A stretch of 64,000 nt of DNA from an archaeon (GTDB lineage: Archaea; Thermoproteota; Nitrososphaeria; Nitrososphaerales; Gagatemarchaeaceae): the NCBI GenBank assembly GCA_902812495.1, contig CADDZR010000007.1, forward strand, positions 1 through 64,000, in the 5' to 3' direction. Below are positions 32,500 to 32,702 of this stretch, one piece after another. Under the pieces are notes generated by a model that did no database searches, was not told the DNA's origin, and was given only the letters and a program-made list of their open reading frames with translations. The number at the start of each line of letters is the position of its first letter. Position 1 is the stretch's first letter. The position numbers and the translations under genes were made by a program.

Positions 32500-32568
32500 A
32501 AGACAAGGAACTGACGCAACGCCGGGGGTGGGATTCGAACCCACGAGACCCATAACGGGTCACGGGCT

Positions 32569-32578
32569 TTCTCGTCTA
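32569..32578 (-). other. 10-base tRNA intron between positions 37 and 38
   Basis: The insert TAGACGAGAA places CTTG (positions 32-35) against intron CGAG as a four-base helix (one G-U pair) with bulges AG^T and AA^A, next to the anticodon stem. There is no room for an inner intron helix, so this is a relaxed form of the motif at the canonical intron site. Confidence 0.72.
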
Positions 32579-32608
32579 CTCAAGGCCCGCGCATTAGTCC
32601 ACTCTGCT

Positions 32609-32621
32609 CTCGGGCTTTCGA
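32609..32621 (-). other. 13-base tRNA intron between positions 8 and 9
   Basis: The insert TCGAAAGCCCGAG is flanked so that CGGG of the acceptor strand pairs with CCCG of the intron (four-base central helix) with a GAAA loop closed by C-G. Three-base bulges GT^T and AG^A lie on opposite strands, and an outer helix forms between CTGC (leader plus G1-C2) and GCAG of the D stem. Cleavage in the bulges restores T8 and A9. A non-canonical intron position. Confidence 0.8.
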
Positions 32622-32702
32622 ACCCCGGCAGGCCCCGGCAAGCAGTGCCATTATTTGCACCTCCATTAAACCTTTAGTGTACTTCGGGAGAAGGCGTGCT
32701 AG

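Follow-up and report, generated by a model that had tools for sequence, protein, structure and literature searches.

A conserved leader element accompanies the intron between positions 8 and 9 of a tRNA-Ser(UGA) gene in Nitrososphaeria and may act as a surrogate acceptor strand

How can a tRNA precursor be spliced when the splice motif of its intron is built from the bases of its own acceptor stem? The question arises from a gene in the window, by which we mean the whole 64,000-nt stretch of DNA that was analyzed. The parts of the gene and of its leader, numbered on the forward strand and encoded on the minus strand, are as follows (BHB, bulge-helix-bulge).

32520..32629, minus strand: tRNA-Ser(UGA) gene of 110 nt with two introns, 87 nt when mature (sequence, fold).
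32665..32670, minus strand: TATA-like hexamer TTTAAT (-41), some 30 nt upstream of the leader element (simple score only).
32633..32640, minus strand: leader element UGCCGGGG, -11 to -4, a second acceptor 5' strand that complements CCCCGGC and G73.
32630..32632, minus strand: spacer CCU between the leader element and nt 1; C-2 and U-1 lengthen the predicted BHB outer helix (CUGC/GCAG).
32622..32629, minus strand: exon 1 (nt 1-8), GCCGGGGT; nt 1-6 double as BHB bases (sequence, fold).
32609..32621, minus strand: intron 1 at 8/9, 13 nt, TCGAAAGCCCGAG (sequence).
32579..32608, minus strand: exon 2 (nt 9-37), AGCAGAGTGGACTAATGCGCGGGCCTTGAG; G10 C11 A12 G13 are the 3' side of the BHB outer helix.
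32569..32578, minus strand: intron 2 at 37/38, 10 nt, TAGACGAGAA (sequence, fold).
32520..32568, minus strand: exon 3 (nt 38-73), AGCCCG...CCCCGGCG, with the variable arm, the T arm, CCCCGGC and G73 at 32520.

Read from 32629 down to 32520, the gene has both introns at exactly the boundaries that an earlier sequence-only reading had assigned. Removal of the 13 nt at 8/9 and the 10 nt at 37/38 leaves an 87-mer that is predicted to fold, at -44.8 kcal/mol, into the perfect class II cloverleaf which that reading had described, with long variable arm, anticodon UGA and discriminator G73. The exons are contiguous and in order, so this is neither a split nor a permuted tRNA gene. It is missed by ARAGORN, and by Rfam at the gathering cut-off: the RF00005 match reaches only 26.7 bits, below the cut-off because the model puts the acceptor inside intron 1, a placement that produces mismatches and that we rejected. 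tRNAscan-SE includes a thaumarchaeal intron model. Failure of the standard finders would suit a pseudogene or a degraded tRNA with chance insertions. We find this hardly credible and have rejected it: the cloverleaf is perfect, the gene is the only one for Ser(UGA) that was found, and the same site is occupied in 27 genes (see below). In the genome (Nitrososphaeria, 1.34 Mb, 94.87% complete), the anticodon UGA occurs in a single gene among the 46 hits to RF00005 and every Ser-like match at the DNA level, the remaining Ser genes having GCU, GGA and CGA, and a Ser pattern that is blind to the leader also matches just one place. In this genome, 94.87% complete, the search did not turn up the second intact Ser(UGA) gene that the sequence-only reading had named as grounds for taking this one as a pseudogene. 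Elsewhere in the same genome, a tRNA-Ser(CGA) of which RF00005 detects the T arm only (L087/L104, G000:C1 ~90950-91068) seems to be interrupted both within the anticodon stem and at 37/38, and a multi-intron tRNA of unsettled isotype (L095, G000:C2:65118-65227; D arm and anticodon loop) has an exact copy of its own acceptor strand AGCCCGG one base upstream, which may be chance. A MoaA-like protein is encoded near the window gene, its nearest named relatives being Nitrososphaerota archaea.

Both introns have motifs of the BHB type, as had been proposed, and the two differ in kind. Intron 1 has the strict form, a 4-bp central helix between two 3-nt bulges with predicted cuts after the second bulge base: the helix is C3GGG6/CCCG, the bulges are G7U8|U and AG|A9, the cap is C-GAAA-G (a GAAA loop), and the outer helix G1C2/G10C11 is extended by the leader bases C-2 and U-1. 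Its removal restores a standard tRNA. Intron 2 has the relaxed bulge-helix-loop form, with one 3-nt bulge, a 4-bp helix and a loop that replaces the second bulge and helix; here CUUG (nt 32-35) pairs with CGAG around a 6-nt loop AGUAGA, the 3' bulge is AA|A, and the structure is present in the minimum-energy fold. The involvement of acceptor and D-stem bases in the first motif also holds, nt 3-6 pairing with CCCG and the outer helix reaching nt 10-11. Because this motif takes acceptor bases 1-6, it competes with the acceptor stem, and the two are mutually exclusive, which the earlier reading overlooked.

The 8/9 site is indeed unusual. Archaeal tRNA intron positions have been described as seemingly random (PMC8450103), and the non-canonical sites given in a review include 20/21, 25/26, 45/46 and, as an extreme, 3/4 (PMC4090602); 8/9 is absent from these examples, in a list that ends with “etc.”. 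The size of the introns is less exceptional than had been supposed. To call them the smallest plausible, and a test of the lower size limit of the endonuclease, was an overstatement, since shorter introns are known: nucleomorph introns of 3 nt are spliced (PMC4090602). Other introns of the same genome are similarly short, as judged by eye. As for the endonuclease type, which had been proposed as a check, separate alpha-like and beta-like EndA genes are found. The alpha-like ORF has an Aeropyrum-type chain (3p1z_B) as its best match, with the catalytic Tyr, His and Lys region aligned, and the beta-like paralogue has no His motif. With separate genes for a catalytic alpha and a structural beta subunit, EndA would by sequence be of the (alpha-beta)2 type, and such enzymes have been reported to accept non-canonical and relaxed motifs (PMC6379350). 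RNase P RNA is encoded in the genome as well.

An intron between U8 and nt 9 is found in 27 tRNA-Ser genes from seven families (f1, f2, f9, f13, f14, f17 and f20). The search covered 61 relatives by DNA, 400 genomes of the class by the leader-blind pattern and 42 selected genomes by the D-arm, and the fetched stretches were read; one of the 27 genes (G218) came from a leader-based pattern. The inserts are 13-37 nt long and variable in sequence, and they follow the same BHB logic: every one closes with a stretch complementary to nt 3-6 and then a 2-nt bulge, and the central helix has four pairs in 19 and three in 7 of the 26 genes measured. Recurrence of the same site with a matching BHB argues that the insert in the window is not a chance event. 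Beyond the class, another 250 genomes of the phylum yielded no convincing case as far as the pattern can reach; the four matches obtained do not resemble tRNA-Ser genes. In families f8 and f10 of the order, neither the acceptor nor the D-arm pattern picked up a Ser(UGA)-type sequence in most genomes, which places both families outside the survey. Two Ser(UGA) genes of genus g2 (L072 in G010, L073 in G001) have an apparent T-arm intron instead of the 8/9 intron.

The main interest of the locus is a conserved leader element tied to this intron, which the sequence-only reading had also passed over. The window gene is preceded by GCCGGGG-CCT (GCCGGGG at 32639-32633), so that the acceptor 5' strand is present twice. 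In each of the 27 genes with the intron, a stretch of the leader can form 7-11 bp with the 3' acceptor strand plus G73 or the bases beyond it, and this stretch mostly repeats the acceptor 5' strand. We scored the best helix without gaps that the final 32 bases of the leader can form with nt 66-73 and the three bases that follow: a score of at least 19 is reached by 27/27 genes with the 8/9 intron and by 5/52 intronless genes (Fisher 2e-16, a value that, like the other association statistics, ignores the relatedness of the 27 genes). The duplex energy is better than that of shuffled leaders (p<0.05) in 26/27 against 7/52, again with kinship ignored, and in 2/25 of the other tRNAs of the window genome. 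U-1, which extends the BHB outer helix, occurs in 22/27 intron-bearing and 16/52 intronless genes. In the window, a TATA-like box lies about 30 nt before the element, and transcription should therefore start just upstream of it; by the same simple score, most of the 27 genes have a TATA-like hexamer about 30-40 nt upstream of the element. Judging from these TATA-like sequences, transcripts probably start near the element.

Within four genera, intron and element tend to come and go together. Full copies accompany the intron in G007 (g2), G008 and G013 (g6), G035 (g7), and G048 and G305 (g19), whereas there is none in the intronless Ser(UGA) genes read in G001 and G010 (g2), G005 (g6) and G297 (g19), nor in many intronless ones read in g7. 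The exceptions are two intronless g7 genes that reach the score of 19 (L062, L065), a g7 Ser(CGA) without the 8/9 intron and with the leader copy (G025), a gene that keeps the copy and has an apparent 14-nt D-loop intron instead of the one at 8/9 (L070/L150, G046), and G288, where the scoring stretch is 9 bp long. A further family, f3, has Ser(GCU) genes with an insertion near 7/8 (G038 L201, G054 L083). Their outer helix would use leader AGGA and G1, complementary to the D arm, and a leader stretch complements the 3' acceptor strand if a 2-nt bulge is allowed (p values against shuffled leaders, 0.07 and 0.04), which is at most suggestive of a second case of the same leader design.

Identity of the copy to the acceptor strand in most genes could mean that it is a functionless relic of intron gain by partial duplication of the 5' end. 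We regard this as improbable, given that the copy is present in every one of the 27 genes across the seven families despite diverged spacers and introns and is missing in intronless congeners, and that where it has changed, pairing to the 3' end has been preserved. The element of six f2 genomes, GGCGCCGG, shares just five bases with the acceptor strand but pairs over eight with CCGGCGCC, that is, nt 68-72, G73 and the next two bases, a register shifted to the 3' end. In G189 it is GCGCUGGGA, where one changed base makes a G-U pair. Nucleotide 73 is unpaired in mature tRNA; in all 27 genes, however, the element is preceded by a pyrimidine, which could pair with G73. Of 18 distinct rows, 15 have a last element base that suits nt 66, G facing C66 and A facing U66. 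Covariation pair by pair is a weak test here, since the 3' strand hardly varies: only one pair of the leader:3' helix has changed on both sides, the 3' strand being almost invariant. What is kept thus seems, from the sequences, to be complementarity to the 3' end and not identity to the acceptor. The f2 genes also bear on the idea that the true acceptor strand is the upstream one, with a longer intron that spans the spacer and the second copy. Geometrically, a similar BHB could presumably be drawn with the upstream copy. In f2, G299 and G300, however, that copy cannot make a 7-bp acceptor stem, and most genes would lack U at nt 8; the inner copy, in contrast, is perfect and followed by U8 in 27/27. 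The sequence contradicts this arrangement, which we rejected on U8 and stem pairing as very improbable.

Predicted folding agrees with a role of the element before splicing. BHB formation is cheaper with the native than with a shuffled leader in 25/26 genes, by a median of 3.3 kcal/mol at 37 C and 3.0 kcal/mol at 60 C, and in the unspliced precursor the element is predicted to outcompete the acceptor for the 3' strand in 24/27. The BHB itself is a minor conformer in the energy model (P ~0.002 for the window gene). After removal of intron 1, the share of the acceptor rises in 21/27, usually without winning; acceptor pairing exceeds leader pairing in 4/27 with 34-nt leaders and in 0/27 with short leaders, and the outcome for the window gene swings with leader length (0.96 at 22 nt, 0.29 at 34 nt). 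A clean thermodynamic switch, seemingly perfect for the window gene with a 22-nt leader, was rejected because it is not general across the 27 genes. The hand-back of the 3' strand to the true acceptor strand is unexplained by the folding model, which excludes tertiary contacts and proteins. The same pairing and intron association would also be expected if the element merely ordered processing, the occupied 3' strand keeping RNase P and tRNase Z away until splicing is done, with no direct help to the BHB. In Methanopyrus, end trimming normally precedes splicing (PMC3695527), an order that would be awkward for an intron that depends on the acceptor strand. The enrichment of U-1 and the greater length of the outer helices suggest that the BHB is itself involved, and we consider a pure ordering role unlikely.

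Together, our data suggest, with a probability of about two in three, that the window holds a functional tRNA-Ser(UGA) gene, the only one found in its genome, with two EndA-spliced introns and a leader that provides a surrogate acceptor strand in aid of 8/9 splicing. The cut at 8/9 would require acceptor nt 1-6 to pair both with nt 10-11 and with the intron (CGGG/CCCG), at the price of open acceptor and D stems in the precursor. The surrogate 5' strand in the leader would pair with the 3' acceptor strand and G73, hold the precursor ends together and free the true 5' strand for the BHB, whose outer helix the spacer would lengthen. After splicing, the true acceptor strand would displace the surrogate, and RNase P would then cut off the leader. 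The data establish the sequence, the intron boundaries, their recurrence, the association with the leader element and its predicted pairing before splicing; from these we infer cleavage of intron 1 by EndA, the help of the leader and the drive of the strand exchange. In a stronger form, for which the odds seem to us even, the surrogate strand at the start of the primary transcript would be a required folding helper in cis that forces splicing before end maturation, is kept class-wide and lost with the intron, and whose trick the Ser(GCU) genes of f3 may share. For acceptor-proximal introns, the bases of the splice motif are those of the stem, a conflict that a spare strand lent by the leader would solve simply. 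If this is true, tRNA leaders can carry conserved folding information, and a reversed processing order is predicted for tRNA-Ser(UGA). The pattern of leader and intron also offers a means of detecting and checking tRNA genes that escape ARAGORN and Rfam.

Searches of the openly accessible literature turned up neither 8/9 introns nor a leader of this kind. Their combination, an 8/9 intron with a spare leader strand, is apparently undescribed, although absence from these texts is no proof of novelty. The closest systems are the non-canonical BHB introns of Crenarchaeota and Thaumarchaeota, which are likewise short, lie at non-canonical sites and have BHB or relaxed motifs and an EndA of the (alpha-beta)2 type. 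The present BHB differs from these in that it consumes the acceptor 5' strand and is accompanied by a leader element, at a site outside the examples of PMC4090602 noted above. The 3/4 introns of Thermoproteales (cited in PMC4090602) share the location in the acceptor region, where leader bases should join the splice motif; unlike here, no surrogate acceptor strand is described for them in the accessible literature. In split and permuted archaeal tRNAs, too, sequence that flanks the mature tRNA pairs to build a processing structure, whereas the window gene is contiguous and colinear, and its leader pairs with the mature 3' strand and not with another leader or trailer.
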